Below, in pieces: positions 19,204-50,848 of a DNA stretch of 64,000 nucleotides. The DNA is from Litoreibacter roseus. Lineage in GTDB: Bacteria; Pseudomonadota; Alphaproteobacteria; Rhodobacterales; Rhodobacteraceae. Both the position numbers and the translations under genes were made by a program. Location: the NCBI RefSeq assembly GCF_009811795.1, contig NZ_BLJE01000004.1, forward strand, positions 124,001 through 188,000, in the 5' to 3' direction. The notes beneath the pieces are model-generated. The model saw nothing but the letters and a program-made list of their open reading frames with translations, made no database searches and was not told the origin of the DNA. Numbering within the stretch: position 1 is the stretch's first letter; each line of letters starts with the position of its first letter.

Positions 19204-19247
19204 ACGAAGTCCGACGGGTTTCCGATAAAAGTCCGATAGAAGTCCGA
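19204..19247 (-). repeat. Array A: four contiguous 11-bp TCGGACT units
   Basis: On the minus strand the units are TCGGACTTCTA (19247-19237), TCGGACTTTTA (19236-19226), TCGGAAACCCG (19225-19215) and TCGGACTTCGT (19214-19204), with no gap between them. The array starts 8 bp after the stop codon of the dehalogenase-like gene and fills most of the convergent gap to the LysE gene. The first 19 bases are identical to part of array B at 50322-50365. Confidence 0.85.
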
Positions 19248-19254
19248 AAGCCGA

Positions 19255-20139
19255 TTACGCCTCGAAAAACTCGGTGAAACAGTCCAGAACCGCCTGCGGA
19301 TTTTCCTCCATCGCGAAGTGACCGCTGACGCAGGAGCGGGTTGTCAGATCAGCGGCCCACGATCGCCAGACTGCCGCGGGATCGCCTGTCTGCGCCGGGA
19401 ACCCGCCTTCCGCGTAAAGGAACCTGACGGGACACGTGATCTGCCGCCCGGCGGCCTTGTCTGCTTCATCCAACGCGCGGTCAAAGGTTGCCCCTGCTCT
19501 GTAATCCGCGCACATGCCGTGAAGGTGCTCCGGATCCTGCGCCTGCAGCCGGTAACTGGCCAGTGCATCGGGGCTGAAGACCGCCAATGACTTGTCCAAT
19601 GTCCAGCTTTCAAGCGTCCAGTCGATATATGCTACGGGATCCGCTCCGATCATTCGCTCGGGCAACGGCGCGTCTTGGGCGAGGAAGGTCCAGTGGTACG
19701 CTTTCATTGCCAAATCGGCGGACCAGTCGGCCCAGAAATCCCCGGTGGGGACGATCTCGATGATGCCGAGCTTATGTACGCGTTCGGGATGGTCCAAGGC
19801 CATCCGATAAGCCACACGCGCGCCCCGATCATGGCCTAGAACAGCGGCGCCCTCATAGCCCAATGCGTCTAAAATCCCAATAATATCACGGGCCATGCGC
19901 CGTTTGGAGTATGTCTCGTGGGCAGGATCATCCATTGGCGCGTCACTTTCACCGTAGCCGCGCAGATCAGGGATGATACAGGTGTGCGTCTTGGCAAAAC
20001 CCGGCGCGACGCGTGCCCATGTCATGTGGTTCTGAGGGTATCCGTGTAGCAGTACCAACGGCGGACCGTCGCCGCCGATATGAACCGAAAGCGTGACTCC
20101 ATCGACCGTAATCTTCTGCTGGGTGAACCCGTCTATCAT
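19255..20139 (-). CDS. Haloacetate-dehalogenase-like alpha/beta hydrolase
   Basis: A 294-residue hydrolase whose key residues match fluoroacetate dehalogenases at a constant offset of 6 from Rhodopseudomonas RPA1163 numbering recalled from the literature. They are nucleophile Asp104, carboxylate-binding Arg105 and Arg108 (GHDRGARV), halide pocket His149, Trp150 and Tyr213 (AYHWTFLAQ; CADYRAG), and His274 (SGHFAMEE). The acid position is Glu128 instead of Asp. The family hydrolyses haloacetates to glycolate; some relatives are epoxide hydrolases, which would lack the Arg pair and the His-Trp pair. It overlaps the DUF1643 stop by 4 bp and is probably co-transcribed with it. Confidence 0.78.
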   Translation of the reverse strand: MIDGFTQQKITVDGVTLSVHIGGDGPPLVLLHGYPQNHMTWARVAPGFAKTHTCIIPDLRGYGESDAPMDDPAHETYSKRRMARDIIGILDALGYEGAAVLGHDRGARVAYRMALDHPERVHKLGIIEIVPTGDFWADWSADLAMKAYHWTFLAQDAPLPERMIGADPVAYIDWTLESWTLDKSLAVFSPDALASYRLQAQDPEHLHGMCADYRAGATFDRALDEADKAAGRQITCPVRFLYAEGGFPAQTGDPAAVWRSWAADLTTRSCVSGHFAMEENPQAVLDCFTEFFEA

Positions 20140-20642
20140 GGCCAGATCTCCGGCTGTTTGGCGTAGGCGATGTAAAGCGGGTGCTTTGGATGTCCAGCTT
20201 TTGAAAGACCCAGATGATACAACGGTTTCCCGGTGTCGCGCATCAGCGTTTCGACGTTAGGTCCACGGCTCAGATGCTCCCCATGGGTGCCCCAGGCGCA
20301 GACGACATCATCGGCCCAGAAACACGCCTCCCGAATAGCTGCGTCGTTCTCCGGGCCGACTGGTTCAGCGGCCTTGCGCATCTGGAACGGATCCGTGTCG
20401 CGCCATGCGAAGATATTGCAAACCCGAAACGCGCCGTAACCCAAGGCCCGCGCTCTGCGCTCGCACCGTTCGACCGTCGGATCGTTCTGAATTTCTGTTG
20501 CAGTGGAGGGATTTAGCATCACGAACGCCACCTTCTTACCTGTCGTGTCCCACGTGCGGGTTAGCGTGTAGCGGTAGCGTTCACAATCGGAGTAAACCGC
20601 GATGCTGTCGGCATCGTCTTTCAGGTGAGTGCGGGTGATCAT
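20136..20642 (-). CDS. DUF1643 domain protein
   Basis: A 168-residue cytosolic protein with the DUF1643 pattern: FVMLNPSTATEIQNDPTVERC near residues 40-60, YGAFRVCNIFAWRDTDP, and VVCAWGTHGEHLSRG. The family is widespread, often occurs near mobile or restriction genes, and has no assigned biochemical function. It is upstream of, and overlaps by 4 bp, the dehalogenase-like gene. No insertion sequence or restriction gene is visible here. Confidence 0.8.
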   Translation of the reverse strand: MITRTHLKDDADSIAVYSDCERYRYTLTRTWDTTGKKVAFVMLNPSTATEIQNDPTVERCERRARALGYGAFRVCNIFAWRDTDPFQMRKAAEPVGPENDAAIREACFWADDVVCAWGTHGEHLSRGPNVETLMRDTGKPLYHLGLSKAGHPKHPLYIAYAKQPEIWP

Positions 20643-20681
20643 GGCCCGTCTTGTGGCAGGCCATGATCAGATCGGCAAGGC

Positions 20682-21152
20682 TCAGGCGGTCGAGGCGGCT
20701 TTCGTGAAGGGCCGTTTCTCGATCAGGTAAACCGCGACAATCGCGTAGACGATGTGCCCCCAAAGCGCGACCCATGTGATGCCCGTAAAGCCGAGGAACG
20801 GTTTGTTGCCCGCAATCAAGTGCGCAACGCCGTAGAGCGCGAAGATCCAGAGGCCGATACCATAGGCGACAGCCGTCACGATCCAGGGCAGGGCGGGAAC
20901 GATCTTTTGTTGCAATGGTCTGGCGACGAGAACATAGCCAAGCGTGTAGACAAAGAGCCCGGTCAGAATGTGAAGAATGTCGCCTGATCCTTTCGGGACG
21001 GCGCCGAAAACGGTTTTCAGCGTACCGGTTGCAAGACCGACCGGGGCGAGTTTTGCAAAGCCGAAGAAAGGCGCAAGTCCTTGACCGAAAAGGTCGAAAG
21101 CAACTGTGGCGAGAGCGCCTGCGGTTAAGATGGTCCAGAATTGGCGGGTCAT
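20682..21152 (-). CDS. Hypothetical integral membrane protein
   Basis: A 156-residue protein with about four hydrophobic helices (ILTAGALATVAFDLFG; ILHILTGLFVYTLGYVLVA; WIVTAVAYGIGLWIFALYG; ITWVALWGHIVYAIVAVYL). The start MTRQFW at 21152 is preferred because AGGAGA lies 8 bp upstream; the open frame continues 22 codons further without support. It is 39 bp from DUF1643 on the same strand. I do not recognise the family. Confidence 0.65.
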   Translation of the reverse strand: MTRQFWTILTAGALATVAFDLFGQGLAPFFGFAKLAPVGLATGTLKTVFGAVPKGSGDILHILTGLFVYTLGYVLVARPLQQKIVPALPWIVTAVAYGIGLWIFALYGVAHLIAGNKPFLGFTGITWVALWGHIVYAIVAVYLIEKRPFTKAASTA

Positions 21153-21337
21153 TGGGCTGTCTCCTGTGGGTGTTTGCGATCCGTTGAGTGAATGGATAGC
21201 GACAGCCTGCCGCACCAAGATACCCCCCTCACGGAAGGGTTAAGGGCTGTTACGAAATCTGTGCGCAAACGCGGCATTCTTACGTTTCGAGAAAAAAATC
21301 CGCATAAATGCACAGATGAGTTCGAGAATTGTTACAA

Positions 21338-22246
21338 TCAGTCTCGGACAAAGACGCGAGACGGATGAAGTTCGCCCGCCTTGTAGCGCCCGACAGCGAT
21401 GGCCTGACCGTTCAGCGAGGCCCATGCCTCATCGCCGTAGGACACGTCCGAGGCGAGAACGAGACTTGGATTGCCATTCTTCAACCGCGCGGCCCCCTCT
21501 GGCGTGGTGGGAAGCTCTGGAATATCTTCAAGCGCCAATTCCAACGGCATGAGATACGTATCGAGATCTGCTGATTTAGCCTCCGCCTCTATCTGCTCCA
21601 GAGATACCCCGTCTTCCAGGTCAAACGGCCCCGACCAGACACGCCGCAGGCTTCTGACGTGCCCCAGACATCCCAGTGCCTCGCCCAGATCCCGTGCAAT
21701 TGACCGAACATAGCCCCCCTTGCCGCAGACCATCTCAAACGTGACGTGATCAGTATCGTCCCGGCGGATCATCTCCAGACTTTCGACAAACAAAGGGCGG
21801 GCCGCGATCTCGACATTTTCCCCATCTCGCGCGAGCTTATAGGCCCGCTGTCCGTTAATCTTCACCGCGGAAAATTGTGGGGGTACCTGTAGAACGTCAC
21901 CTACAAATTGAGGTAGCGCGTTCGCGATCTGGACATCGCTCGGCCGGGTGTCGTTTTCAGAGATCACTTCACCCTCGGCGTCGTCAGTATTGGTCGCCTG
22001 CCCCAAGCGGATCGTGAATTCGTAGGCCTTCAGAGCGTCCGTGATATAGGGCACCGTCTTTGTGGCCTCGCCCAGTGCAATCGCCAGCACCCCCGTTGCC
22101 TCAGGGTCCAATGTGCCTGCGTGGCCGGCCTTTTTGGCATCGAACGCCCAGCGGACCTTGCCGACAACGGCGTTGGACGACAATCCGGCAGGCTTGTCGA
22201 TGACCACCCATCCGTGAACATCGCGGCCCTTTTTTCTGCGTGCCAT
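21338..22246 (-). CDS. truB: tRNA pseudouridine(55) synthase TruB
   Basis: A 302-residue enzyme that makes pseudouridine 55 in the T-loop of tRNA. The catalytic Asp47 is in [16 protein letters not shown], preceded by [17 protein letters not shown]. Other conserved segments are [20 protein letters not shown] and [18 protein letters not shown]. It begins 1 bp after the rbfA stop, an rbfA-truB operon as in most bacteria. rpsO, usually next, is elsewhere in this window. Confidence 0.97.
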
Positions 22247-22247
22247 G

Positions 22248-22643
22248 TCAGTCTTCCAGATCGCGCTTTACGGTATCGCTTTCAAACAGACGGCGGGTGT
22301 CATCCATCCGGTCAAAGGTCTCATCAATGACGAACCGCAGATCAGGGGCGTATTTCAGCGCCATGTTCTTCGAGACCGCTCGGCGCAACTCGCCCTTGTT
22401 GGTTTTCAGCGCTGCAATCGCAGCCTCCCGGTTGTCCCCACCCAGCGGCAGGACATAAACGGTCGCGATCTTCAGATCGGGCGAGGTGCGGACTTCGCTT
22501 ACGGTGATGGACATCCGATTGAGATCCGGATCATGCACGTCGCCGCGATTGAGCACATCCGCAAGCGTGCGCCGGATCAATTCGCCGACCCGCAGTTGCC
22601 GCTGTGACGGGCCTGCGCCTGAAAAGTGAGAATTCTTTGCCAT
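22248..22643 (-). CDS. rbfA: 30S ribosome-binding factor A
   Basis: A 131-residue cold-shock-related factor needed for maturation of the 16S 5' end. It has the KH-like fold motifs [46 protein letters not shown] and [16 protein letters not shown]. It is first in the rbfA-truB pair and divergent from dapB across 78 bp. Confidence 0.96.
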
Positions 22644-22721
22644 GGGCGGTGATGTAAGGCCCTTGTCTCACACGCGCAATGGGTCATAGATCAGCGGGAT
22701 TTTCTTGTCGGGAGTGCGAAG

Positions 22722-23522
22722 ATGGTTGGAGTTGTGATCACCGGGGCATCTGGTCGTATGGGCCGCATGTTGATTGATACGGTTCGCGCCAGCAGCAAAG
22801 CAAAGCTTGTAGGGGTAACAGAGCGCTACGGTCATGACTGGGTCGGTCAGGATCTGGGCGAAGCCTTGGGTGGTACCACATGGGATGTGCCAGTTGTTTC
22901 TGATCCGATCGATGTTGTGAAAGACGCGCAGGCGATCATCGACTTCACCACACCCGCCGCGACGATGGCGCTGTCGGAACTGGCCGCGCAAGCCCGTGCC
23001 GTTCATGTGATTGGGACGACTGGGCTGGACGATAACCATTTGGAAAAGATCGCCACTGCGGCACGACACGCGCCGATTATTCGCGCGGGCAACATGAGCC
23101 TTGGGGTCAACTTGCTTGTTCAACTGACCAGGAAAGTCGCAGAAGCGTTAGACGAGGATTTCGACATCGAGATCGTCGAAGCCCACCATCGTCACAAGGT
23201 GGACGCTCCATCGGGCACTGCGTTGATGCTGGGTGAAGCCGCAGCCGACGGGCGCGGCGTTTCACTGTCGGACGTCTCAGATCGCGGCAGGGACGGGATA
23301 ACGGGCGCGCGCAGAACCGGTGATATTGGTTTCACGGCCATCCGTGGCGGCGATGTCGTCGGCGAGCATGATGTGATCTTTGCGGCAGACGGTGAGCGGG
23401 TGGTCCTGCGCCATCTGGCAACGGATCGCGGCATCTTCGCCCGGGGGGCACTGAAGGCAGCGCTTTGGGGGCAGACCCAAGGTCCTGGAGAGTATGATAT
23501 GATGGATGTGCTGGGGCTCTGA
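22722..23522 (+). CDS. dapB: 4-hydroxy-tetrahydrodipicolinate reductase
   Basis: A 266-residue NAD(P)H-dependent enzyme of the diaminopimelate/lysine pathway. It shows the nucleotide-binding GASGRMGRM at residues 7-15, [15 protein letters not shown], and the substrate-binding [16 protein letters not shown]. Length is typical. GGGAG precedes the ATG. The small secreted-protein gene follows after 78 bp on the same strand. Confidence 0.97.
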
Positions 23523-23600
23523 GTGCCGTGATTTCTTAATTATTGAACCATATCCTGTCTCACAGCGTATTGTAATCAGTGAGTGTAAGGAGATCGTGCA

Positions 23601-23966
23601 ATGTCTTCGAACCGTCTTTTGAAAATCTTTGCGATTTGCGTTTCCGTCATAGTGGCACCGCTTGGTGCCTATGCGTTTGAGAAAGTGGAAAGCAAATCTG
23701 AATTTGTGGATGCCGTGGCCGGCAAAGATCTGACCATCTTCGCGATTAACGTGTCCGTAATGCCGGACGGCCAAATCAAGGGCCGTGCGTATGGCAGACC
23801 CGTGTCCGGCCAATGGCAATGGCGTGATGGCTACTTCTGCCGCAGCTTGTACTGGGGTAGCCGCGATCTTGGCCCGAATTGCCAAGAAGTTAAACTACGC
23901 GGTAACAAGGTCCGCTTCACGTCTGATCGTGGAAACGGCCGCTACGCAGATTTGACCGTGCGCTAA
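23601..23966 (+). CDS. Small secreted protein of unknown function downstream of dapB
   Basis: A 121-residue protein with a clear signal peptide (FAICVSVIVAPLGAYA, cleavage near residue 25) and a mature domain holding GRPVSGQWQWRDGYFCRSLYWGSRDLGPNC. The two cysteines could form a disulphide in the periplasm. Proteins of this kind are sometimes labelled dihydrodipicolinate reductase from their position beside dapB, but nothing in the sequence supports that activity. AAGGAG precedes the start. Confidence 0.7.
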   Translation: MSSNRLLKIFAICVSVIVAPLGAYAFEKVESKSEFVDAVAGKDLTIFAINVSVMPDGQIKGRAYGRPVSGQWQWRDGYFCRSLYWGSRDLGPNCQEVKLRGNKVRFTSDRGNGRYADLTVR

Positions 23967-23975
23967 GGCGCAAGG

Positions 23976-24158
23976 TCAAAAATCGACAGCAATTCCCTTC
24001 TTTTCCCAATCGCCGTAGCGAATGGGTTCGGGGCCATCGCGCCCTCCCAACTCCGTCGGCAGCTCAAGCTTCTTTGCTGCTTTTCGCCGTTCTTCGGCCT
24101 CCTTCAGCGCGCGTTGCGCCGCAGGTGGCAGATCTTGGGTCGTGTCTTGTTCATCCAT
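23976..24158 (-). CDS. DUF1674 / SdhAF4-like protein
   Basis: A 60-residue protein. The C-terminal signature ELGGRDGPEPIRYGDWEKKG followed by IAVDF is that of DUF1674, whose mitochondrial member SDHAF4 helps assemble flavinated succinate dehydrogenase. The start ATG 24158 gives the usual family size; the open frame upstream overlaps the rsmB-like leader and has no family similarity. It is convergent with the secreted-protein gene and divergent from the methyltransferase gene. No sdh genes lie in the window. Confidence 0.8.
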   Translation of the reverse strand: MDEQDTTQDLPPAAQRALKEAEERRKAAKKLELPTELGGRDGPEPIRYGDWEKKGIAVDF

Positions 24159-24196
24159 ACGCTCTGATATACGCCCGCGGGAAAAGGAGACAAGGG

Positions 24197-25507
24197 ATGA
24201 CTGACAGCGCGCGGACGGGAAAGCCCGGTTTAGCTGCACGGCGCGCTGCCCTCCAGATTTTGCGCGGGGTGCTCGAAGACCGTACCCAAATGTCGGATCT
24301 TGTTGCCTCTTCCGGTTTCCTCTCTGGCCTTGCCCCCGAGGATCGCGCCCGCGCACAGCGCCTGGCGACGACGACTCTGCGACATCTCGGACAGGCGGAT
24401 ACACTGATTGACCGCTATGTGGATAAAAGTCCGCCCGTTCCCGCACGCAATATTCTCAGGCTGGCAGCGGTAGAGCTTTGTGTCCTAGGCGAGGCGGCCC
24501 ATGGTGTCGTGGACAGCGCAGTCACGCTCATGCGCAAAAACCGCAAAGGCGGCCAGATGACTGGGCTGGCAAACGCGGTTTTGCGCAAGATTGCAGATGA
24601 GGGTGCAGAACTTTGGGCTGAGCTACCCCCGCAAACTCTCCCAAAGTGGTTGCGGCGGCGGATCGTCCACATCTACGATGAGCAGATCGTTAGAGATATC
24701 GAAGCCGCACATCTGCGCGGGGCTCCGCTGGATTTGACGCTAAAGAATGACTTGGATCCGGTCGAATGGGCCGCAAGCCTACAAGCTGAGATTTTACCGA
24801 CTGGCACCTTGCGCATCGATCGCTCGGCGCAGGTCACCGATCTACCGGGTTATCACGATGGCAGTTGGTGGGTGCAAGACGCAGCCGCCGCGCTGCCGGT
24901 TCGCATGTTGGGGAATGTGTCAGGTCTGACAGCGCTCGACCTGTGTGCCGCGCCAGGTGGGAAGACATTACAACTGATCTCGGGCGGTGCCGAGGTGACT
25001 GCGTTGGACCATTCACAATCTCGGATGAAACGCCTGCGCGAGAACATGCGCCGCACCAATCTGGACGCCAAAGTTGTCGTCGCGGATGCGCTTGAATGGC
25101 AAGCTGAAGAACAGTTCGATCTGGTCGTTTTGGATGCACCATGCTCGGCCACGGGCACCATCAGGCGCCATCCCGACCTTCCATTCGTGAAGACCGGGAA
25201 AGAGCTTCATGACGTCTTCGCGTTGCAATCAGATCTGATTGACAGGGCTGTTGATTTGCTCAAACCGGGGGGCCGTCTGCTCTACTGTACATGTTCGCTT
25301 TTGACCGAAGAAGGCGAGCGACAAGCCAAGCTCGCAATAGAACGGCATGGCCTTCTACAACTCCCAGTTGAAATTGACGCGCTAGGCGTTCCGGAAACTT
25401 GGGTAAGAGACGGCGGAGGTCTGCGGACGCGCCCGGATTTGTGGCAAATCTGTGGCGGAATAGACGGATTTTTCATGATTGTGTTGAAAAAACCAGTTTC
25501 ATGCTGA
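24197..25507 (+). CDS. RsmB/NOP-family 16S rRNA (cytosine-C5) methyltransferase
   Basis: A 436-residue SAM-dependent RNA methyltransferase. An N-terminal NusB-like RNA-binding domain (about residues 10-135) precedes the catalytic domain, with LDLCAAPGGKTLQL (SAM motif I), VVLDAPCSATGTIRRHPD (catalytic base-flipping Cys, motif IV) and LLYCTCSLLTEEGE (nucleophilic Cys, motif VI). The start at ATG 24197 follows GGAGACAAGGG. The N-terminal domain and length match RsmB (Sun, m5C967), but related family members cannot be excluded. Confidence 0.88.
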   Translation: MTDSARTGKPGLAARRAALQILRGVLEDRTQMSDLVASSGFLSGLAPEDRARAQRLATTTLRHLGQADTLIDRYVDKSPPVPARNILRLAAVELCVLGEAAHGVVDSAVTLMRKNRKGGQMTGLANAVLRKIADEGAELWAELPPQTLPKWLRRRIVHIYDEQIVRDIEAAHLRGAPLDLTLKNDLDPVEWAASLQAEILPTGTLRIDRSAQVTDLPGYHDGSWWVQDAAAALPVRMLGNVSGLTALDLCAAPGGKTLQLISGGAEVTALDHSQSRMKRLRENMRRTNLDAKVVVADALEWQAEEQFDLVVLDAPCSATGTIRRHPDLPFVKTGKELHDVFALQSDLIDRAVDLLKPGGRLLYCTCSLLTEEGERQAKLAIERHGLLQLPVEIDALGVPETWVRDGGGLRTRPDLWQICGGIDGFFMIVLKKPVSC

Positions 25508-25572
25508 CAGGCTGATTTGCCTGTGGATAAAATGGTTAACAACAACAATAGACGAAAAGTCGGGGCAAACCA

Positions 25573-27321
25573 ATGGGTATCGAGTCGAAGTTCACGTCGT
25601 TTGTGGGCGCTGAGAGTGTCAGTGCGCTTATGGACAGACTTCATGCGCGACTGAGCGCGCGGGAAGCACCAGCCACAGCCTTCGTATCACAACCTCAGAT
25701 TCAAACTTTTGGCTCCCATGCACGCGGGATGCAACTGAAGGTAGGAAACTACCTGTTTGGCGGTCAGCTTATCGAAGCGCCGGGTCAAAGTATCTGGGAT
25801 CTGACCTCGACCGACAGCTCCGTCGATCTTGAGTTGCATGGATTTGGCTGGCTCGATGATCTGGCAACCGTAGGCGACGAGGACGCATGCCGGATTGCGC
25901 AAAACTGGACAGCCGAATGGATCGCGCGGTTCGACACTGGTAGTGGCGCAGGGTGGCGCCCCGATCTGACCGGTCGCAGGATGATCCGCTGGATCAACCA
26001 CGCAACCCTGCTTTTGCGTGGCCAGAACTCTGCTGCGAGTGAAGATTTCTTCAGGTCGCTGACGCACCAAGCCGGGTTTCTCGCCCGTCGTTGGTCCGGT
26101 GCTGGACAGGGATTGCCGAAATTCGAAGCGGTCACCGGCCTGCTCCATGCCGGTCTCAGTCTTGAAGGCATGAGTGACCTGATCAAGGTCGCGACGGATG
26201 CTTTGGATCGCGAATGCCGAGATCAGATTGACAGTGAAGGCGCGTTGCCCACCCGTAATCCTGAAGAATTGCTGGAAGTTCTGACACTTCTGATTTGGGC
26301 CGAGATTGCCTTGCGGGAAGCCAAGCATCAGCCGTCCGCCGCGCATCTTGACGCAATCTCTCGGATTGGGCCTTGCTTGAAACGCCTGCGTCACGCGGAT
26401 GGGGCGCTCGCGCGGTTTCACGGCGGCGGACGCGGCATCGAAGATCGGCTGACCTACGGCCTCGCGTATTGCGGCGATCTGCCTGCACCGGAAAAAGACA
26501 CGGCAATGGGGTTCGCTTGTCTTGCTGCTGGGAAAAGCACGGTAATCTTGGATGCGGGTCAGGCGCCGGCCACGGCGGCATCTCAAAACGCTCATGCCAG
26601 TGCCTTAGCCTTCGAGATGACGTCCGGTCGCTGCCCGATCATCGTCAATTGCGGCAGTGGTGCCAGCTTTGGACAGGACTGGCGCAGGGCCGGTCGGGCA
26701 ACTCCGTCACACAGTACGCTCAGCGTCAACGGTGTGTCATCGGCGTTGATCAGTCAGCATGGCTCCGGCGAATACCTCAACAAAGGTCCCAAAACTGTAA
26801 CGCTGTCGAAAAGCGATGACGGTGCGGGTCTTCATCTAGCGGCCTCCCATGACGGCTATGCGTCTCAGTTCGGTCTGGTACACCACCGCGGCATCGGGAT
26901 GAGCCACAATGGAAGTATGTTGTGTGGCGTTGATCGGTTCGAGGCTTTTTCGGACAGCCAGAAACGACGCTTCGAAGACCACATGAATGAAACGCTTTTT
27001 GAAGGCGTGGCCTACGCGATCCGCTTCCATACCCACCCCGATGTATCCGTCGAGTTGGACTGCGGTGGGGCAATGGTGTCGTTGGTGACGCCATGCGGCG
27101 AGACATGGGTGTTCCGCTTCGATGGACCCGCTGCATTGTCGGTCGAGCAGAGCGTTTACCTCGAAAAAGGCAGATTGAGGCCCCGCGCGACCAAACAGAT
27201 CGTTTTATCTGGCCGCGTCATGGAGTATGCGAGCGACGTCAGCTGGAATCTGACGCACGCGCAGTCTTCCAACGCAAAGACATGTGGGGCGGTCAACACT
27301 CCGGAGCTGGCACAGGACTGA
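25573..27321 (+). CDS. Heparinase II/III family protein
   Basis: A 582-residue protein with an alpha-helical toroid N-terminal half ([42 protein letters not shown]) and a C-terminal beta-sandwich ([37 protein letters not shown]), as in heparinase II/III-type polysaccharide lyases. No signal peptide is evident, which is unusual for a lyase and may mean cytosolic action on oligosaccharides or a non-lytic role. It sits between the RNA methyltransferase and purH, all on one strand with short gaps, a setting with no obvious polysaccharide theme. Substrate unknown. Confidence 0.8.
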
Positions 27322-27349
27322 CGACTTCCGAGCCTGCGAAAGGGTAAAA

Positions 27350-28933: not shown

Positions 28934-28937
28934 TCCC

Positions 28938-29405: not shown

Positions 29406-29441
29406 GAAAATACGCGAGTGTGCAAGGTAAGGATTGAAGTG

Positions 29442-40553: not shown

Positions 40554-40558
40554 CGAAT

Positions 40559-41850: not shown

Positions 41851-41916
41851 ATTGATGCAGGTCAGAGCAGGTGCTTAAGCCCCATGTGAGACTTCGGGAA
41901 AATCCGGAGGACTGCT

Positions 41917-42234: not shown

Positions 42235-43373
42235 GCCAGATGATCCACCACGCGCTCGAACTGTGACAGACGGTCGACCGTTTCCAACCAGCGTTTGACA
42301 AGCTTCGGATCGCTTGGCGCAGCTGTGACGCCCACAGGAATTTCCCGGTTGATGACAGCCTCCACCGCCAGGGCGACGGGGACGGATACCAACCGCGCCA
42401 TCGCGGTCCCGCGCGCATCGCCGTATGCGTCCATGACATAAGTTTTGTGATATACGGGGGTGCCCTCAGCTTCGGCTTTCAGACCAACGCACAGCACGAC
42501 CCGATCAGGCTCACCGTCTGCATAGGCGTTGTCTGCCCAGAACTGATCCGACATTTCTCGCAACCGGGCCTCGCCCGCATCCCCTTCAAGCGTTTCGATC
42601 TCGGCGAAAACGTTTGACCACGCGTCTTTCCAACCATTCAGGCGCAGCGTACCGCGCACGAACTCTTTGATCTTCCATCCTTTGCCAAAGCCATATTCTT
42701 CCACGAATGGTAGGGAGTCCCGGTTGGGATAGACTTCAAAGGTTTCTGGCTGACGCAACGGCGCTGTGTAGGTGCTGATCGCGTCCCACGGTCGTGTAAT
42801 GTTCAGTTCCGCATGGGCTTTGATGGAGCGTGACGGCGATTTGAGCGCTTTCAGAACCCCCAGAGGTGACCAACTGAATTTGTAGCGAAAGGCGTTGGGT
42901 TCTTTCGGAATACCACCGCAGTAGGAGATAAAGGAAATCCCATTGCCCACATCATAGGCCCGCGATGCCCGGTAATCCACAACCAGCCAATGAGCCATGA
43001 TGTGGTCAATGCCCGGATCAAGGCCGACCTCATTGACCAGCCGAACACCGGCAAGCTCAGCCTCTTCGTCCAAGGCACGCATTTCCGGCGAGATGTAGCT
43101 GGAACTGACAAAATGCGCCTTTGCCTCAATACAGATCTTTGCAAGCGGGACATGCCAGTCGCCGGGAAGCATCGACACAACAACATCCCCGGCTGAAAGC
43201 GTCTCATTCAGCTTATCTATGTCAAATTTTTCAATCTGGTCCGTCAGATCGCCCACGGCATCCTCGGCTTTCTCTACCGTTCGGTTCCAGACGGTGATGT
43301 CGTGCCCGTTCTCGATCAGCTGTCGCAGCCCGGGAATGGCAGACAGACCTGTTCCACACCAATGGATCGTCAT
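42231..43373 (-). CDS. Saccharopine dehydrogenase family protein (glutamate-forming/reductase type)
   Basis: A 380-residue dehydrogenase with an N-terminal Rossmann motif (WCGTGLSAIPGLRQL, residues 4-18), VVSMLPGDWH, NEVGLDPGIDHIMAH and SYCGGIPKEPNAFRYKFSWSP, as in LYS9-like saccharopine reductases. The start MTIHWCG at 43373 is chosen over an upstream ATG lying in the neighbouring gene. With the upstream lysine-forming enzyme it would split lysine plus 2-oxoglutarate to aminoadipate semialdehyde and glutamate, a catabolic route described in roseobacters. Carboxynorspermidine dehydrogenase is a related alternative, made less likely by the neighbour. Confidence 0.82.
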   Translation of the reverse strand: MTIHWCGTGLSAIPGLRQLIENGHDITVWNRTVEKAEDAVGDLTDQIEKFDIDKLNETLSAGDVVVSMLPGDWHVPLAKICIEAKAHFVSSSYISPEMRALDEEAELAGVRLVNEVGLDPGIDHIMAHWLVVDYRASRAYDVGNGISFISYCGGIPKEPNAFRYKFSWSPLGVLKALKSPSRSIKAHAELNITRPWDAISTYTAPLRQPETFEVYPNRDSLPFVEEYGFGKGWKIKEFVRGTLRLNGWKDAWSNVFAEIETLEGDAGEARLREMSDQFWADNAYADGEPDRVVLCVGLKAEAEGTPVYHKTYVMDAYGDARGTAMARLVSVPVALAVEAVINREIPVGVTAAPSDPKLVKRWLETVDRLSQFERVVDHLA

Positions 43374-43374
43374 T

Positions 43375-44430
43375 TCACAGCCTTTCGATATGGTCGTTGA
43401 AGATGGAGTAGGCCCGCGCCCACACACCGTTGTTCAGCTCTGCCAAAGCGAGCAGAGAGGGGAACAACTGCTCGGCAAAATCTTCCGACGCTTCAAGGGG
43501 CAACATGGAAGGGAGGTTATCAATCGCGGTGACATCCAAAAGCGGCGTGTCATGGACCCGCAGCGCAGGCGCATCCCATGTGGTTGCCCGGTCGTATACC
43601 TTGATTGGGGAAAAATCGCTGTCCGGGTCACAGGCGATATCCCCGATAACCGTCAGATTTCTTTGCGCCGTTTTCGCGCTGGCGGGAACGAAGACGGGTG
43701 TGCCGGGCCGCGCAAGAATACAGTTGAGAAAAATGTCGTGGCCCAGAATCTCGGGAAATGGTCCACCGGACGCAGTCTCGGTCATATCCCAGGCAGTGGT
43801 TGGAACGCCCATCGCGGTGCAAAGATCAGACGCGCCGGAGCCCACACGACCCAAGGCGCCGATTACAATCGCTGTTGGCCGTTCGGTCCCGATGCCGACC
43901 ATCTGTTCCTGCAAGTCGGCAAGCAAATGCGGTGACGACGGGTAATCGCCAACCGGACCTGCGATCCCACCCGTCTTCTGGGCCATCCAGCATTTTAAGG
44001 CCACCGCCGCGCCTGCATACCCTGCCCAGTAGCCGAAGGCCGCCACGCGGCGCCCTGTTTCGTCAACCAAGTACTCGAGATCGTAAAGCGCACCACCGCC
44101 TACTTTGAATCTATCCAGTAGAATGCGACCGGCCGGTTGGCCTTTGAACGCATGACCGAACATGATGTGGCGATGAAGAAGGGGCGTGCCATCATCTGGA
44201 AGTTCTTTCAGGCCGAAGATAATTGCGTCGCGCGGCGCATCGGGCCAGCTGCCTTCCGCAACGATAGTGCATCCAGCTTCTCGGTATCCCTCCGTCGGGA
44301 TGATTCGCGTGGCGCTGTCCTCGACGCTGATGTCGAAGCCGCGCGCGATCAGTTTTGCTGCGCCCGCTGGCGTCAGACCAACGCGTTTTTCATGTGCGCG
44401 CTGCTCTGCGCGAACCCAAAGATGCACCAT
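43375..44430 (-). CDS. Saccharopine dehydrogenase, lysine-forming type (LYS1-like)
   Basis: A 351-residue NAD-dependent enzyme similar to LYS1 and alanine dehydrogenase. It shows WVRAEQRAHEKRVGLTPAGAAKLIA near the N-terminus, IIFGLKELPDD, HIMFGHAFKGQ and VIGALGRVGSGASDL (nucleotide binding). In bacteria with both genes this enzyme condenses lysine with 2-oxoglutarate to saccharopine. GGAGGAGGAG precedes the ATG. The second saccharopine enzyme begins 1 bp after its stop. Because dapB supplies lysine biosynthesis, this pair is most likely catabolic or osmotic-stress-related. Confidence 0.87.
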   Translation of the reverse strand: MVHLWVRAEQRAHEKRVGLTPAGAAKLIARGFDISVEDSATRIIPTEGYREAGCTIVAEGSWPDAPRDAIIFGLKELPDDGTPLLHRHIMFGHAFKGQPAGRILLDRFKVGGGALYDLEYLVDETGRRVAAFGYWAGYAGAAVALKCWMAQKTGGIAGPVGDYPSSPHLLADLQEQMVGIGTERPTAIVIGALGRVGSGASDLCTAMGVPTTAWDMTETASGGPFPEILGHDIFLNCILARPGTPVFVPASAKTAQRNLTVIGDIACDPDSDFSPIKVYDRATTWDAPALRVHDTPLLDVTAIDNLPSMLPLEASEDFAEQLFPSLLALAELNNGVWARAYSIFNDHIERL

Positions 44431-44616
44431 ATCCCGCTCCTCCTCCTGAATGTCTAGGCCAACGCACCGAGGCTCACAATGGGCCTGCGCCGTCGCCCTA
44501 TGGGATGCAGCCGGGTCGTATCAGAAACAGCTTGCCGCAAATTTCGCGCGTCACGTCGCGGGTGAAGTCTTCGATTGGGTCGTCAATGGGTTATCTAGGA
44601 TGAAAGGGAGCCTTAG

Positions 44617-47382
44617 ATGTCCGACACGATCACCTTCACGCTTGATGGCGCATCCGTCGAAGCAGAGCCTGGCCAAACCATTTGGGAGGTCGCGCACGGA
44701 CGCGGACTGGTGATCCCCCATCTGTGTCATAAGCCGGAGCCGGGCTATCGTCCGGATGGCAATTGCCGCGCGTGTATGGTCGAGATTGAAGGGGAGCGCA
44801 CGCTTGCGGCATCCTGCATTCGGGAGCCATCGAATGGGATGGTCGTCAAGACAAATTCGAACCGGGCAGAAACTGCGCGCAAGATGGTGGTCGAGCTGCT
44901 GCTTGCAGATCAGCCGCCCCGTGATGCGGCCCATGACAAAAGTGCGCACCTTTGGGACATGGCGGAAGCAAATAGTATTCCGGAAAGTCGCTTTCCGAAA
45001 TTGGAAGACGGTCGCATTCCGTTGCTTGATGACAGCCACATTGCCATGAGCGTCAATCTGGATGCGTGTATACAATGCGGTCTGTGTGTTCGAGCCTGTC
45101 GCGACGTTCAGGTCAACGATGTGATCGGAATGGCCGGTCGAGGTCATGACAGCTATCCGACGTTCGACTTTGCCGACCCAATGGGGGCGTCGACTTGTGT
45201 TGCTTGCGGCGAATGTGTGCAGGCTTGCCCGACCGGCGCATTGATGCCCGCGACTGTGACTGATGCCAAGCAAGTAGGCGACAGTCGGGATTTCGACACA
45301 GAGACTGAAAGCATCTGTCCATTCTGCGGTGTGGGCTGCCAAGTCTCGCTCAAGGTCAAGGACGGAAAGATCAGGTATGTCGAGGGGATCAACGGTCCCG
45401 CCAACGAGGGGCGGCTGTGCGTCAAAGGCCGCTTCGGGTTCGATTACATCCACCACCCCCACCGTCTGACCAAACCGCTGATCCGCCGGGATGATGCACC
45501 TGCGAAGGGCTTGAACGTCGATCCCGCAAATCTGGCCACGCATTTCCGGGAGGCCACATGGGACGAGGCGTTGGACGCCGCGGCCCGTGGCTTAAAAGGG
45601 CGAGGTCGAGAGGTCGCAGGGTTCGGTAGTGCCAAATGCACAAACGAAGAGGCTTACCTGTTCCAGAAGCTGATCCGTCAGGGGTTCGGGCACAACAATG
45701 TCGATCACTGCACGCGGCTTTGCCACGCGTCCTCTGTTGCGGCTCTGATGGAAAATGTCGGTTCCGGCGCGGTCACTGCCACGTTCAACGAGATTGAGAA
45801 TGCCGATGTCGCCATCGTCATCGGTGCGAATCCGGTGGAAAACCATCCGGTCGCAGCGTCATATTTCAAGCAGTTCGCCAAACGAGGTGGCAAGCTGATC
45901 GTGATGGACCCGCGGGGTCAGGCGCTCAAGCGTCACGCTTCACATATGCTGCAATTCCGGCCCGGAGCCGATGTCTCGATGCTGAATGCGATCATGCATG
46001 TGATCGTTGAAGATGCGCTGTACGATCAGCAATACATCGACGCCTATACCGAGAACTGGGACGCCGAGAAACATCATCTGAAAGATTTTGCCCCTGAGAA
46101 GATGGCTGACATCTGCGGTATCGACGCCGAGACCCTGCGCGATGTCGCTCATACGTTTGCGGGCGCCCAATCCGCGATGATTTTTTGGGGTATGGGCGTC
46201 AGCCAGCATATTCACGGGACTGATAATTCCCGGTGTCTGATCTCTCTGGCACTAATGACGGGTCAGGTCGGTCGCCCCGGCACCGGTCTGCATCCCCTTC
46301 GCGGTCAGAACAACGTCCAAGGTGCGTCAGACGCCGGTCTTATTCCAATGTTCCTTCCAGACTACCAAAGCGTCACCGATCCCGACATCCGAGAGAAATT
46401 TACCGAGGTCTGGAGCAGTGATGACTTCAGCGCGGAAAAAGGTCTGACAGTCACGGAAATCCTCGACGCCGTGCATGCAGGCGATATCAGGGCGATGTAT
46501 GTTTTGGGTGAGAACCCCGCGATGAGTGACCCGGATGTAGACCATGCACGGGATGCCTTGGCAAAACTCGATCATCTCGTAGTTCAAGACATCTTTCTGA
46601 CGGAGACCGCGAACTTTGCCGACGTGATCCTACCAGCCTCTGCCTTCGCAGAGAAATGGGGCACAGTTACGAACACGAACCGTCAGGTCCAGATGGGGCG
46701 GCCTGCTGTGCCTCCACCGGGCGATGCAAAAGAAGACTGGTGGATTGAGGTCGAACTGGCGAAACGCATCGGTTTGCCTTGGACGTATACCGACCCGTCG
46801 GAGGTTTTCGCAGAGATGAAGCAGACGATGGCGAGCCTCGACAATATCACATGGGCACGGCTACAGAGCGAGAATGCGGTGACCTATCCCTCGCTCTCGC
46901 TAGAGGATCCCGGTCAGGCCATCGTGTTTGGCGAGGGGTTCCCGCGGCCTGAGGGTCGGGCGAAGTTCACGCCAGCAAATGTGATCGCGCCTGACGAGAC
47001 GCCTGACGCAGATTATCCGATGATTTTGACGACAGGACGCCAGCTTGAGCATTGGCACACCGGGTCAATGACTCGCCGCGCGACTGTTCTGGATCAGCTT
47101 GAGCCTGAAGCGAACTGTTCATTGCACCCCGCGACGCTGCGGAGGCTAGGGGTGAACCCGGGTGATATGCTACGCCTGAGCACCCGGCGCGGAAGCATTG
47201 AGATCATGGCCAGGGCGGACCGGGCGATTGCCCCTGACATGGTTTTCGTCCCATTCGCTTATGTGGAGGCGGCCGCGAACATCCTGACCAATCCAGCGGT
47301 TGATCCTTACGGAAAAATTCCGGAGTTCAAGTTCGCAGCCGTAAAAGTCGAAAAGATCGATGCGCAGGTCACTGCAGAATAG
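44617..47382 (+). CDS. fdhF: Formate dehydrogenase alpha subunit with N-terminal ferredoxin domains
   Basis: A 921-residue molybdenum enzyme. The N-terminal [2Fe-2S] domain has Cys37, Cys50, Cys53 and Cys67. Two [4Fe-4S] motifs follow (CIQCGLCVRACRD; CVACGECVQACPTG), then CPFCGVGC for the fourth cluster and the pterin domain with DHCTRLCHASSVAALME, whose first Cys matches the Mo-coordinating Cys of FdsA enzymes. The C-terminus has GRQLEHWHTGSMTRR. GGGAG precedes the ATG. No fdsB, fdsG or fdhD genes are adjacent, so its electron acceptor and maturation factors must be encoded elsewhere. Confidence 0.88.
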   Translation: MSDTITFTLDGASVEAEPGQTIWEVAHGRGLVIPHLCHKPEPGYRPDGNCRACMVEIEGERTLAASCIREPSNGMVVKTNSNRAETARKMVVELLLADQPPRDAAHDKSAHLWDMAEANSIPESRFPKLEDGRIPLLDDSHIAMSVNLDACIQCGLCVRACRDVQVNDVIGMAGRGHDSYPTFDFADPMGASTCVACGECVQACPTGALMPATVTDAKQVGDSRDFDTETESICPFCGVGCQVSLKVKDGKIRYVEGINGPANEGRLCVKGRFGFDYIHHPHRLTKPLIRRDDAPAKGLNVDPANLATHFREATWDEALDAAARGLKGRGREVAGFGSAKCTNEEAYLFQKLIRQGFGHNNVDHCTRLCHASSVAALMENVGSGAVTATFNEIENADVAIVIGANPVENHPVAASYFKQFAKRGGKLIVMDPRGQALKRHASHMLQFRPGADVSMLNAIMHVIVEDALYDQQYIDAYTENWDAEKHHLKDFAPEKMADICGIDAETLRDVAHTFAGAQSAMIFWGMGVSQHIHGTDNSRCLISLALMTGQVGRPGTGLHPLRGQNNVQGASDAGLIPMFLPDYQSVTDPDIREKFTEVWSSDDFSAEKGLTVTEILDAVHAGDIRAMYVLGENPAMSDPDVDHARDALAKLDHLVVQDIFLTETANFADVILPASAFAEKWGTVTNTNRQVQMGRPAVPPPGDAKEDWWIEVELAKRIGLPWTYTDPSEVFAEMKQTMASLDNITWARLQSENAVTYPSLSLEDPGQAIVFGEGFPRPEGRAKFTPANVIAPDETPDADYPMILTTGRQLEHWHTGSMTRRATVLDQLEPEANCSLHPATLRRLGVNPGDMLRLSTRRGSIEIMARADRAIAPDMVFVPFAYVEAAANILTNPAVDPYGKIPEFKFAAVKVEKIDAQVTAE

Positions 47383-47405
47383 GACAATAATTCACACCTA
47401 TTATT

Positions 47406-47419
47406 TGAACGCTTGTTCA
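47406..47419. promoter_or_regulatory. Inverted repeat TGAAC-N4-GTTCA upstream of the acyl-CoA ligase gene
   Basis: TGAAC at 47406-47410 and GTTCA at 47415-47419 are perfectly symmetrical and sit 10 bp before a -35 candidate. The form resembles operators of TetR-type fatty-acid regulators, but no such regulator gene is in the window. Confidence 0.35.
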
Positions 47420-47429
47420 TAAAAATCAT

Positions 47430-47460
47430 TTGACCTCCGCTAATCGAGCCGCACTATATG
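47430..47460 (+). promoter_or_regulatory. Candidate promoter of the ABC importer operon
   Basis: TTGACC at 47430-47435 with TATATG at 47455-47460 (19-bp spacer) or ACTATA at 47453-47458 (17-bp spacer). It lies 52 bp before the first gene of the cluster. Confidence 0.45.
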
Positions 47461-47512
47461 GTTCAACACGAACTTAAGTTCGGAAGCTGGACAACCGGCT
47501 CGGGAGGAAAAT

Positions 47513-49483
47513 TTGGCGATACCCACAACAGCCTCGGCTGGGACGGATACGATGCCGCGTCTTCTGGCGCGAAACGTCGCTGAGTTTGGCGATAAGTCTG
47601 CCTATCGTGAAAAAGAATTCGGTATCTGGCAAAGCTGGACATGGTCCGAAGCCGCAGCTGAGATAGAAACACTTGCCCTTGGCCTGCTCACACTTGGTGT
47701 GAAAGAAGGCGATCACATCGCCATCATTGGACGCAACAGGCCATATCTTTATTGGTCAATGGTGGCTGCGCAGAAATGCGGTGCGGTGCCAGTCCCACTC
47801 TACCAAGATGCGGTCGCGGAAGAAATCGCCTACGTGCTTGATCATTGCAGCGCGCGCTTTGTCGTTGCTCAAGACCAAGAACAGGTCGACAAGGTCATCG
47901 AGGTGATGGATCAGCTTCCGGGGTTGGAGCATATGGTCTACCTCGATCCTCGGGGTCTGCGAAAATACGATCACTCCCACCTGAGCCGCTTCGACGAAAT
48001 ACAGGCCCGCGGCAGAGACCAAGGCGATCCAGCAGAGCTGAAGCGGCGGCAGGATGCGCAGGGCTATGATGACACCTGCGTCATGCTCTACACCTCCGGT
48101 ACGACGGGGCGGCCCAAGGGCGTCGTATTGTCCAACAGGAATATCATCGAGACGTCCAAGAATTCGGCAGAGTTTGACCATCTCGAACCGGGCGACGAAA
48201 TTCTGGCCTATCTTCCAATGGCTTGGGTTGGTGATTTTATCTTCTCGATCGGGCAGGCCTACTGGACCGGGTTCTGTGTCAACTGCCCCGAAAGTCCCGA
48301 AACGATGCACACGGATCTGCGTGAGATCGGCCCGACTTACTATTTTGCCCCGCCACGGGTGTTCGAAACTCAACTCACGCAGGTGATGATCCGGATGGAG
48401 GATGCCGGGCGTTTCAAACAGTGGATGTTCCGGCACTTCATGGATCACGCCAAGAAGGTGGGACCCGATATCCTTGACGGGAAATCCGTCAGTTTCGGCG
48501 ACAGGTTGAAATACAAGCTGGGTGATCTGCTGGTCTATGGGCCGCTCAAGAATACGCTTGGGTTTTCGCGTGTCCGGGTGGGGTATACTGCCGGTGAGGC
48601 GATCGGGCCGGAAATCTTTGATTTCTATCGCTCTTTAGGCATCAACCTAAAACAGCTCTATGGTCAGACCGAAGCGTCGGTCTTTATCACGCAGCAGCCT
48701 GATGGCGAGGTGCGGTCCGATACGGTGGGTGTTCCCTCACCGGGCGTGGAGTTGAAAATCGCCGAAAACGGCGAGGTGTTTTACCGCTCACCCGGCGTGT
48801 TTGTGCGATACTTCAAGAATGATGAAAGCACGGCCAGCACAAAGGACAGCGAAGGCTGGGTTGCCACGGGGGACGCAGGCTTCATCGAAGAAGATAGCGG
48901 CCATTTGAGGATCATCGACCGGGCCAAGGACGTTGGCAAAATGGCCGATGGCGCACTGTTTGCGCCGAAATATGTCGAGAACAAACTCAAGTTTTTCCCC
49001 AATATTCTGGAGGCAGTGGTCTTCGGAAACGGAAGGGAAAAATGTACCGCTTTCATCAACATAGACCTGACCGCCGTGGGCAACTGGGCCGAGCGAAACA
49101 ACATCGCCTACTCGTCCTATCAAGAGCTTGCGGGTCACCCGAAGGTTCTGGAGATCATTCAGGGCCATGTGGAGGATGTGAACCAGTCCGTTGCCGAAGA
49201 TCCGATGCTTGCAGGGTGTCAGGTGCACCGGTTTCTGGTGCTCCACAAACAGCTTGACGCTGATGACGGTGAGTTGACCCGGACCCAGAAAGTGCGCCGC
49301 CGGATCATTGAAGAGAAATTTGATGATCTGATCACGGCCCTCTACGACGGATCAACCGAGCAATACACCGAGACGGAAGTCACCTACGAGGACGGTCGGA
49401 AGGGCAAAATCAAGGCGACTCTTGAGATACGAGATGCCAAGACAGTCGCAGTTGAAGCCAAGACGCTGGAGGCCGCCGAATGA
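47513..49483 (+). CDS. Long-chain acyl-CoA synthetase-like AMP-dependent ligase
   Basis: A 656-residue ANL-family ligase. The phosphate-binding loop is MLYTSGTTGRPKGVVLSN at about residues 197-214, followed by YGQTEAS, GWVATGDAGFI and RAKDVGKMADG. It resembles FadD15-like ligases that start liv-type transporter operons. The start is TTG 47513, supported by GGGAGG 6 bp upstream; no ATG gives the full N-terminus. The stop overlaps the first ATPase gene by 4 bp. It probably activates the carboxylic acid imported by the adjacent transporter (inference from context). Confidence 0.85.
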   Translation: MAIPTTASAGTDTMPRLLARNVAEFGDKSAYREKEFGIWQSWTWSEAAAEIETLALGLLTLGVKEGDHIAIIGRNRPYLYWSMVAAQKCGAVPVPLYQDAVAEEIAYVLDHCSARFVVAQDQEQVDKVIEVMDQLPGLEHMVYLDPRGLRKYDHSHLSRFDEIQARGRDQGDPAELKRRQDAQGYDDTCVMLYTSGTTGRPKGVVLSNRNIIETSKNSAEFDHLEPGDEILAYLPMAWVGDFIFSIGQAYWTGFCVNCPESPETMHTDLREIGPTYYFAPPRVFETQLTQVMIRMEDAGRFKQWMFRHFMDHAKKVGPDILDGKSVSFGDRLKYKLGDLLVYGPLKNTLGFSRVRVGYTAGEAIGPEIFDFYRSLGINLKQLYGQTEASVFITQQPDGEVRSDTVGVPSPGVELKIAENGEVFYRSPGVFVRYFKNDESTASTKDSEGWVATGDAGFIEEDSGHLRIIDRAKDVGKMADGALFAPKYVENKLKFFPNILEAVVFGNGREKCTAFINIDLTAVGNWAERNNIAYSSYQELAGHPKVLEIIQGHVEDVNQSVAEDPMLAGCQVHRFLVLHKQLDADDGELTRTQKVRRRIIEEKFDDLITALYDGSTEQYTETEVTYEDGRKGKIKATLEIRDAKTVAVEAKTLEAAE

Positions 49484-50301
49484 ACGATATGAGCGGCGGG
49501 AACTACACCACGGCGGACGGTCGCAAGATCGGCAACACCTTGATGGAAATGAAAAATATCACGCTGCGGTTTGGCGGTGTGGTGGCGATCAAGGATATCT
49601 CTTTCGACATTCACGAAGGGGAGATCCGCGCCATCATCGGGCCGAACGGGGCGGGGAAATCCTCGATGCTCAACGTGGTCAGCGGGTTCTACAATCCGCA
49701 AGAGGGCGAGGTCTGGTTCCGCGGCAAAAAGCGCCCGCCGATGAAGCCCTATCAGGTGGCCCAGCAAGGGATCGCGCGCACCTTCCAGAATATCGCGCTT
49801 TTCGAGGGGATGAGCGTTCTCGACAACATCATGACTGGTCGGCTGACGCATATGAAATCCGGCATGTTCGCGCAGGCCTTGTGGCTTGGGAAGGCCGAGC
49901 GGGAAGAAACCCAGAACCGGGAAGTTGTTGAAAAAATTATTGATTTTCTGGAGATCCAGACAATCCGGAAAACACCCGTGGGCCGGTTGCCCTATGGGTT
50001 GAAAAAGCGGGTCGAGCTGGCACGGGCCTTGGCGGCGGAGCCAAAGCTCTTGCTGCTGGATGAGCCGATGGCGGGCATGAATGTCGAGGAAAAAGAGGAC
50101 ATGAGCCGCTTTATCCTTGATGTGAACGACGAGTTCGGGACGACCATCGCACTGATCGAACATGACATGGGCGTTGTCATGGACCTCAGCGACCGAGTGG
50201 TCGTCATGGATTACGGCAAGAAGATCGGTGACGGAACGCCGGATGAGGTGCGCAACAATCAGGAAGTGATCGACGCCTATCTGGGGGTCGCACATGATTG
50301 A
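49480..50301 (+). CDS. livG: HAAT-type ABC transporter ATP-binding protein (LivG-like)
   Basis: A 273-residue ATPase of a branched-chain amino-acid-type (hydrophobic amino acid) importer. Walker A GPNGAGKSSMLN (about residues 54-65), the LivG-type loop GIARTFQNIALFEGMSVLDN, the signature LPYGLKKRVELARAL and Walker B LLLLDEPMAGMN are visible. The C-terminus IDAYLGVAHD is characteristic of LivG. It is coupled to the ligase gene by an ATGA overlap and overlaps the next small gene by 8 bp. Confidence 0.92.
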   Translation: MNDMSGGNYTTADGRKIGNTLMEMKNITLRFGGVVAIKDISFDIHEGEIRAIIGPNGAGKSSMLNVVSGFYNPQEGEVWFRGKKRPPMKPYQVAQQGIARTFQNIALFEGMSVLDNIMTGRLTHMKSGMFAQALWLGKAEREETQNREVVEKIIDFLEIQTIRKTPVGRLPYGLKKRVELARALAAEPKLLLLDEPMAGMNVEEKEDMSRFILDVNDEFGTTIALIEHDMGVVMDLSDRVVVMDYGKKIGDGTPDEVRNNQEVIDAYLGVAHD

Positions 50302-50848
50302 AAACACGCGAAAAACCACTTTCGGACTATCGTCGGACTTCTATCGGACTTCCGTCGGACTGTTCTGCGCGATGCTTTTGACGACCTCTGGTGCTGTTGC
50401 AGGCGCATGGTCGGAGTTCGAGCAGCGCTGTCTTGCCCCGTTCGAGGCGGTCGAACGCCCGGATTTGTCTGGACTGACCAAGGGGGCGGCCACGATCTTT
50501 GGTCAGCTTGGCGAGGGCTTTGCACAGACGGCCGATGCCAACGCGGTCTATACCTTTCCAGCGGCAGAGCTTGAGCTGATGGTCATCGCGCCGTCTGATC
50601 GCGCCTATTCCGGATGCATGGTCGTCGGACGCGGCGCGGCAGCGGATGCCGCAGACCAGCGGGCCGCTGATGCGTGGCTGCAGGTGCAGATTGAGGCCGA
50701 GCGCTATGACGAGGTCGCGGGATCGGTTCTGGGGCCAGCTTACCACAGCACGGTCTGGCGTGAGCCGAAGCTGCGGTTCGTCCGGTTGATCACCGATGCC
50801 CCGCGCGTCGTGGTTTACGGCATTTCGGAGACTGATTATGAAAGCTGA
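50294..50848 (+). CDS. Hypothetical exported protein carrying repeat array B in its 5' end
   Basis: A 184-residue protein of unknown function. ATG 50294 overlaps livG by 8 bp and follows a G-rich ribosome-binding site. A hydrophobic segment VGLFCAMLLTTSGAVAGA (residues about 21-38) looks like a signal peptide with a long polar leader. The leader (residues 10-24, FGLSSDFYRTSVGL) is encoded entirely by the 11-bp repeat array. If the repeat was acquired later, translation might originally have begun at ATG 50372, which would leave a very short signal. The mature part has two cysteines (FEQRCLAPFEAVERPDLSGL; DRAYSGCMVVGRG). Not recognised. Confidence 0.62.
   Translation: MIENTRKTTFGLSSDFYRTSVGLFCAMLLTTSGAVAGAWSEFEQRCLAPFEAVERPDLSGLTKGAATIFGQLGEGFAQTADANAVYTFPAAELELMVIAPSDRAYSGCMVVGRGAAADAADQRAADAWLQVQIEAERYDEVAGSVLGPAYHSTVWREPKLRFVRLITDAPRVVVYGISETDYES
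50322..50365 (+). repeat. Array B: four contiguous 11-bp TCGGACT units
   Basis: The units are TCGGACTATCG (50322-50332), TCGGACTTCTA (50333-50343), TCGGACTTCCG (50344-50354) and TCGGACTGTTC (50355-50365), without gaps. Bases 50333-50351 are identical to the complement of 19229-19247 in array A. The period equals one turn of B-DNA, so the same helix face repeats. Confidence 0.85.

Follow-up and report, generated by a model that had tools for sequence, protein, structure and literature searches.

Two short arrays of 11-bp repeats in the genome of Litoreibacter roseus raise the question of whether they are chance repeats, a dispersed element or binding sites for a protein. Both lie in the window, that is, the whole 64,000-nucleotide stretch analysed (G000:C4:124001-188000, G000 being the L. 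roseus genome).

Two four-unit arrays in the window

Array A reads TCGGACTTCTA TCGGACTTTTA TCGGAAACCCG TCGGACTTCGT on the minus strand from 19247 down (span 19204-19247), and array B reads TCGGACTATCG TCGGACTTCTA TCGGACTTCCG TCGGACTGTTC on the plus strand (span 50322-50365). The direct read agreed with a sequence-only reading of the window, which had described two contiguous arrays of four units: TCGGA is kept in 8/8 units and TCGGACT in 7/8, and one 19-mer is common to both arrays. Matches to TCGGACTNNNNTCGGACT with at most 3 mismatches numbered 16 in the window, compared with 6.02 expected, and 0/100 shuffles reached 16. When the window was scanned for tandems of four units with periods of 5-20 and at least 5 invariant columns, arrays A and B were the only places found, both with period 11.

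Array A is located in a convergent gap, 22 bp past the stop of a LysE-type gene (18540-19181, plus strand) and 7 bp past that of an alpha/beta-hydrolase gene (19255-20139, minus strand), right after a stop as the earlier reading had placed it. Array B, which the same reading had put in the first codons of an unknown gene, starts 20 bp past the stop of a livG-type gene (50301) and is translated at the start of ORF X (50294-50848, plus strand, 184 aa). ORF X overlaps the livG-type stop, matches no Pfam family and resembles a secreted protein. In other species, ORF X without the array starts directly at its hydrophobic stretch, so the array appears to lengthen a signal-peptide start.

An array family in the L. 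roseus genome

The genome contains 47 matches to the pattern TCGGA-N6-TCGGA-N6-TCGGA, which group into 24 arrays distributed over both strands; the reversed pattern gave 0. Four units without mismatch were matched by 23/24 arrays, and with at most one mismatch in TCGGA per unit 21/24 have four units and 3/24 have five, so that the motif does recur elsewhere with a non-random unit number, in support of the sequence-only reading. That TCGGA is perfectly conserved partly reflects its use as the search core, and the count of 24 is sequence-defined, such that weak single sites would escape it. The spacers vary from locus to locus; slippage as a sufficient cause is disfavoured because the unit spacers differ while the core stays.

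The 24 arrays have further weak features in common. Positions -11 to -7 have an A/T share of 54-92% per column, seen as GTAAT before array A (19254-19258, minus-strand reading) and as AAAAA before array B (50311-50315, plus strand). A weak GGCTT directly precedes unit 1, and the spacers of units 2 and 3 follow T-T-Y-Y-R. One array, L055:4022-4065, lies between two genes that we take to be bchY and bchZ (chlorophyllide reductase), and the host may therefore be phototrophic.

Other motifs at the same loci in related species

Arrays built alike also occur in related species, with the motifs GTCGGC, GTACAC, GTATGG, GTCGGTAT and ATGCACA, some of them at shared loci (livG-X, valS, lpd, chorismate mutase and gltD). 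The three-unit TCGGA pattern is present in 3/21 genomes of the genus, and the four-unit pattern with one mismatch in 12/394 genomes of the family, the single matches in G127 and G220 being maybe chance. A wide set of genome contigs gave at least 112 four-unit TCGGA stretches, many of those listed in unrelated phyla, so that the pattern alone is unspecific outside this family. Three-unit GTACAC arrays were found in G005 (21), G015 (11), G018 (12) and G019 (7), with 0 in the 17 other genomes of the genus.

The livG-X junction, the site of array B, carries GTCGGC arrays in G001, G003, G009 and G011, GTACAC arrays in G005, G015, G018 and G019, GTATGG units in G008 and mixed GTCGGA/GTCGGC arrays in G014 and G016; no array was seen at this junction in G004, G012 and G020. 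The valS array is internal to the gene and is translated between the catalytic domain (Pfam match end 705) and the anticodon-binding domain (from 756); it bears each species' own motif, or is missing. At lpd, the motif is TCGGA in G000 and G014, GTACAC in G018 and GTATGG in G093. The subset of arrays with fetched flanks yielded more loci with a species-dependent motif, namely chorismate mutase-GNAT, a peptide ABC transporter, serC-serA (with opposite array orientation between the two genomes), deoD, gltD and a Gfo/Idh gene.

After three GTACAC units, the next unit usually takes a constant variant form, GTCGTGAC in G015, G018 and G019 and GTACCGAC in G005 (L166-L195), and fourth units in G312 likewise differ regularly. 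GTTAAC flanks several dispersed GTACAC arrays.

A candidate binding protein with an array before its own gene

The earlier reading had left open a dispersed element or an iteron- or regulator-like binding array. The evidence favours the binding array, and comparison of the flanking genes led to a plausible binder, a small protein. In TCGGA as well as GTACAC species its start is 72-84 bp away from an array, and its gene in L. roseus (G000:C1:80694-81074, outside the window) has an array 72 bp upstream. The product matches the Pfam family BrnA_antitoxin (PF14384) with 50.6 bits, and the G018 protein with 57.9 bits, against a cut-off of 26.1; we take the BrnA domain to be a ribbon-helix-helix (RHH) domain. 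A monomer model of low confidence (pLDDT 74.5, pTM 0.39) exhibited an extended stretch followed by helices at 64-72 and 77-93, where an RHH protein would be expected to have them.

In L. roseus, no BrnT-like toxin gene adjoins the RHH gene, which has a cspA-like gene upstream and further genes downstream, all of these being on the opposite strand; the downstream genes also leave no ParM-type motor gene in an operon with it. The gene upstream in G019 matches no Pfam family above cut-off. A cspA-like cold-shock gene, named by sequence likeness, directly neighbours an array in three genomes (L045, L062, L068, L357). A PDB sequence search with the RHH profile returned no relative (best E 0.11, ribosomal proteins). 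We also considered a phage or plasmid origin and rejected it, the L. roseus RHH protein having no match at 1e-5 in plasmid and phage records. Viral contigs contained 53 three-unit TCGGAC stretches and 4 three-unit GTACACA stretches; by eye, most are repeats with near-identical spacers, unlike the L. roseus arrays, and L484 looks like a true array.

RHH homologs were found in 20/29 genomes searched, that is, in 15/21 of the genus (truncated in G004) and in 5/8 TCGGA-carrying genomes of other genera, with none in G170, G177 and G223. An upstream array is present at 20/22 RHH loci (18 by scan, G108 and G008a by eye); at the truncated G004 locus no array is present, and the G406 locus, whose gene has an internal stop, was left unscored. 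A profile search gave matches in 150/394 family genomes at 1e-5, short BrnA-like hits included. We scored the 330 bp upstream of 90 stronger hits, a subset that omits G118, G299 and G335 among others and of which 6/90 were known beforehand. Period 11 was the best in 64/90. A score of at least 0.6 was reached by 56/90 homologs at period 11, by 2 at the 13 other periods (7-20) together and, in distal DNA, by 0 at period 11. Lowering the threshold to 0.5 made other periods common as well, for example 38 at period 7. The remaining 34/90 homologs score below 0.6, some of them without a visible array. The short BrnA-like hits, used as controls, differ from these homologs in that 18/20 show no array and 0/20 reach 0.6; the other two, L312 (0.59) and L309 (0.47), look like arrays.

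TTAAC or GTTAA occurs at most 90 bp past the self-array in 61/76 homologs (for example L196, L199 and L214), and a GCGCGC-like stretch within about 20 bp to its right in 26/76.

The self-array motif and the dispersed arrays

Before any search for dispersed GTATGG arrays, we fixed a list of genomes expected to bear them, 6 firm and 5 weaker. Such arrays were found in 10/394 genomes, comprising the 6 firm ones, 3 weaker ones (G411, G328, G346) and G118; G083 and G023, both weaker predictions, had no GTATGG array. The outcome was thus 9/11 named genomes positive versus 1/383 others (Fisher p=1e-15, with genomes treated as independent and kinship ignored). The additional genome, G118, has a homolog with a self-array, the pattern lying 69 bp upstream of the hit, so that 10/10 positive genomes have a homolog; positives among the 244 homolog-free genomes were 0. 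The reversed GTATGG control gave one match each in G149 and G346. De novo scans of 400 kb each recovered the self-motif in 6/6 period-11 arrays of G312 and 7/7 of G275. Hits at other periods were obtained as well (G275 had 30 with period 9 and 10 with period 12); the agreement rests on the identity of the motif and not on the number of arrays. In 280 kb of G408, we found the self-array only, plus one repeat without the motif. On comparison of the sequences, the upstream motif is predictive of the dispersed one.

Presence of the arrays was then compared with presence of the protein. The livG-X array (shuffle p<0.01) is found in 11/13 species with an intact RHH gene versus 1/7 without (Fisher 0.004), and the valS array in 10/13 versus 0/7 (Fisher 0.003). 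The exceptions are G015 and G018, which have the protein but no valS array, and G006 and G008, which fail the livG-X test; GTATGG units are visible at livG-X in G008 and were missed by the fixed register. Decayed remnants of arrays were seen by eye in G013, G007 and G002, and G004, G012 and G020 had no arrays in 103 kb in total, a small sample. The arrays at livG-X and valS are mostly retained with the RHH protein and mostly lost without it. Five of the 12 TCGGA-matching family genomes have no homolog at 1e-5 (G127, G220, G170, G177, G223). Among these, G170, G177 and G223 have 8, 3 and 3 TCGGA matches, all but one mismatched, for which one reading is decay after loss of the protein and another an overlooked homolog.

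A beta-strand residue and the motif

Protein and motif were compared in the 76/104 homologs scoring 0.55 or more with a readable register; the other 28 were excluded. Residue X of the T-L-X-L-D beta-strand tracks base 1 of the unit: X=R goes with G in 38/40, and other residues with G in 20/36 (Fisher 7e-5); one row of this table (G378) was misread as X=E. Among the non-R residues, aromatic X is paired with G in 14/14; the remaining 21 comprise 13 with A, 5 with G and 3 ties. A GTCGGT-type motif accompanies X=Y in 7/10, compared to 1/66 for the other residues. On a tree built without the strand, there are only 4-5 supported independent residue-base pairs, on average none opposite, which are too few to test. 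G384 holds two paralogs, one with X=R and GTATGAC and the other with X=L and ATATGAC. Several motifs are pseudo-palindromic (GTC-G-GAC, GTA-T-GAC, ATG-CA-CAT), which would suit one RHH dimer per unit. Across relatives, the RHH protein seems to change in step with the sequence code of its sites, some of which stay beside the same genes.

Proposed explanation and its rivals

Sequence comparison supports an array family, a self-array, a match between their motifs and fewer arrays in species without the protein. We propose that the arrays are probably tandem operators of an autoregulated, fast-evolving, solitary RHH protein, and that this protein binds them seems to us very likely. Four 11-bp sites, one DNA turn apart, would take RHH dimers on one face. 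The protein (BrnA_antitoxin family) would bind the array before its own gene, with presumed autoregulation through this self-array, and further arrays genome-wide, mostly in short intergenic gaps and sometimes within genes, their number per genome ranging from none seen beyond the self-array in the 280-kb sample of G408 up to dozens. The beta-strand would help to set the motif, so that protein and sites might drift together. The bound complex may form a local, stoperator-like block that cuts down transcription across operon junctions and gene ends. We favour this putative block among the possible roles and hold it for slightly less than evenly probable, with a role in the nucleoid nearly as likely.

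As a nucleoid organiser, the RHH protein would use the arrays as sparse anchors where DNA is bent or bridged, and neighbouring genes would be little affected. The occurrence of arrays in both orientations beside mixed genes would agree with this, as would the valS array, which is internal and far from the gene start, and the example of CdbA (PMC7156744), an RHH nucleoid protein whose sites are direct repeats spaced by one turn and whose influence on transcription is minor. The sites are few, however, 24 here versus more than 500 for CdbA, and some species of the genus have no RHH protein, which therefore is not essential there; we consider this role a tentative one. Control of initiation at a promoter regulon, as by classical operators, is improbable. 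The self-array near the protein's own gene and the position of several arrays 19-80 bp before a start codon are in its favour, but the 102 array loci with fetched flanks (orthologs counted separately) comprise 59 codirectional, 18 convergent and 9 divergent gaps, 10 positions inside genes and 6 unclassified, and the flanking genes have no common pathway. The greater number of convergent than divergent gaps, together with the mixed flanking genes, does not favour promoter operators of one pathway. At the 59 codirectional loci, orientation was opposite in 35 and the same in 24 (p=0.19); neither the convergent-gap excess nor the orientation bias is significant alone.

Slightly less probable still, in our view, are short REP- or MITE-like repeats, selfish or mobile, that enter gaps, with an RHH protein that aids their spread or merely tracks them. 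Arrays often fill intra-operon gaps right past stops in either orientation, some species have an array at valS and livG-X where others have a shorter site, and two duplicated stretches end just beyond an array. Against this, spacers vary between copies, unlike fresh copies of a single element, and identical loci bear different motifs in different species. A REP element has a palindromic stem with a stable fold and a linked RAYT transposase, and the arrays have no stable fold (z-scores -1.37 to +1.57 for 8 strands of 6 arrays). The same folding values make an RNA element acting in transcripts very improbable; some arrays lie inside operons and hence would be transcribed, but the window has no Rfam match and the arrays occur in both orientations to genes.

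Comparison with known systems

The component parts of the proposed system of RHH protein and tandem operators have precedents, namely RHH proteins bound to direct repeats, and dispersed non-promoter sites with a repressor-matched motif. The stoperators of Cluster A mycobacteriophages are, according to PMC6550527, many dispersed and mostly non-promoter sites with one near the repressor gene, and their motif varies between genomes along with the repressor. The arrays share the dispersed non-promoter sites, the site by the regulator's own gene and the motif that follows the protein. They differ in being bacterial, four-unit, present in both orientations (the 35 opposite and 24 same loci given above) and associated with an RHH protein, whereas the sites so described are phage-borne, single, asymmetric and mostly in one orientation. 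The Cluster A stoperator repressor is presumably not an RHH protein.

CdbA of Myxococcus xanthus, likened here by description and not by sequence, is a solitary RHH protein with genome-wide intergenic and genic sites, direct repeats one turn apart and no classical regulon (PMC7156744); it has more than 500 weak two-repeat sites and binds c-di-GMP, in contrast to the tens of sharp four-unit arrays here. ParR is an RHH protein that, according to PMC9426499, binds tandem arrays of direct repeats (in plasmid R1, of about 11 bp) beside its own genes with family-specific cognate recognition. These features recall the arrays, but the ParR-parC system has one centromere per plasmid and a ParM motor, unlike the many chromosomal arrays here and the L. 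roseus RHH gene with no same-strand partner beside it. BrnT-BrnA has the Pfam domain family in common with the RHH protein, and BrnAT binds its own promoter in the account of a review (PMC5086665); the L. roseus protein differs in lacking an adjoining BrnT-like gene and in its longer N- and C-terminal parts. In the literature covered, whose scope excluded subscription papers and preprints, we found no solitary BrnA-domain protein with genome-wide four-unit arrays of species-varying code at shared loci.

Somewhat more doubtfully than the local block, the protein and its sites might form a chromosome-wide addressing system, in which a single solitary RHH protein and its four-unit sites would shift their specificity jointly, some sites staying in place across genera. 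Such a system would evolve like a fast-evolving centromere or PRDM9-type recognition, and would organise or insulate operons rather than regulate a pathway. The 76 protein-motif pairs with a readable motif, with the two-code paralogs of G384, are a natural series that makes testable the long-standing question of how a multi-site regulator can change its recognition sequence. The proposal would also give a possible function to part of a domain family whose only names in the sources are 'BrnA antitoxin' or DUF4415, and would account for dispersed repeats that resemble chance when one window is viewed.

Two duplicated pairs in L. roseus, L060:179-590 / L061:3981-4392 (412 bp, 98.8%) and L058:3960-4060 / L059:3939-4040 (about 103 bp, 89%), end 2-6 bp past an array on its right side, as though its edge marked the limit of recombination.
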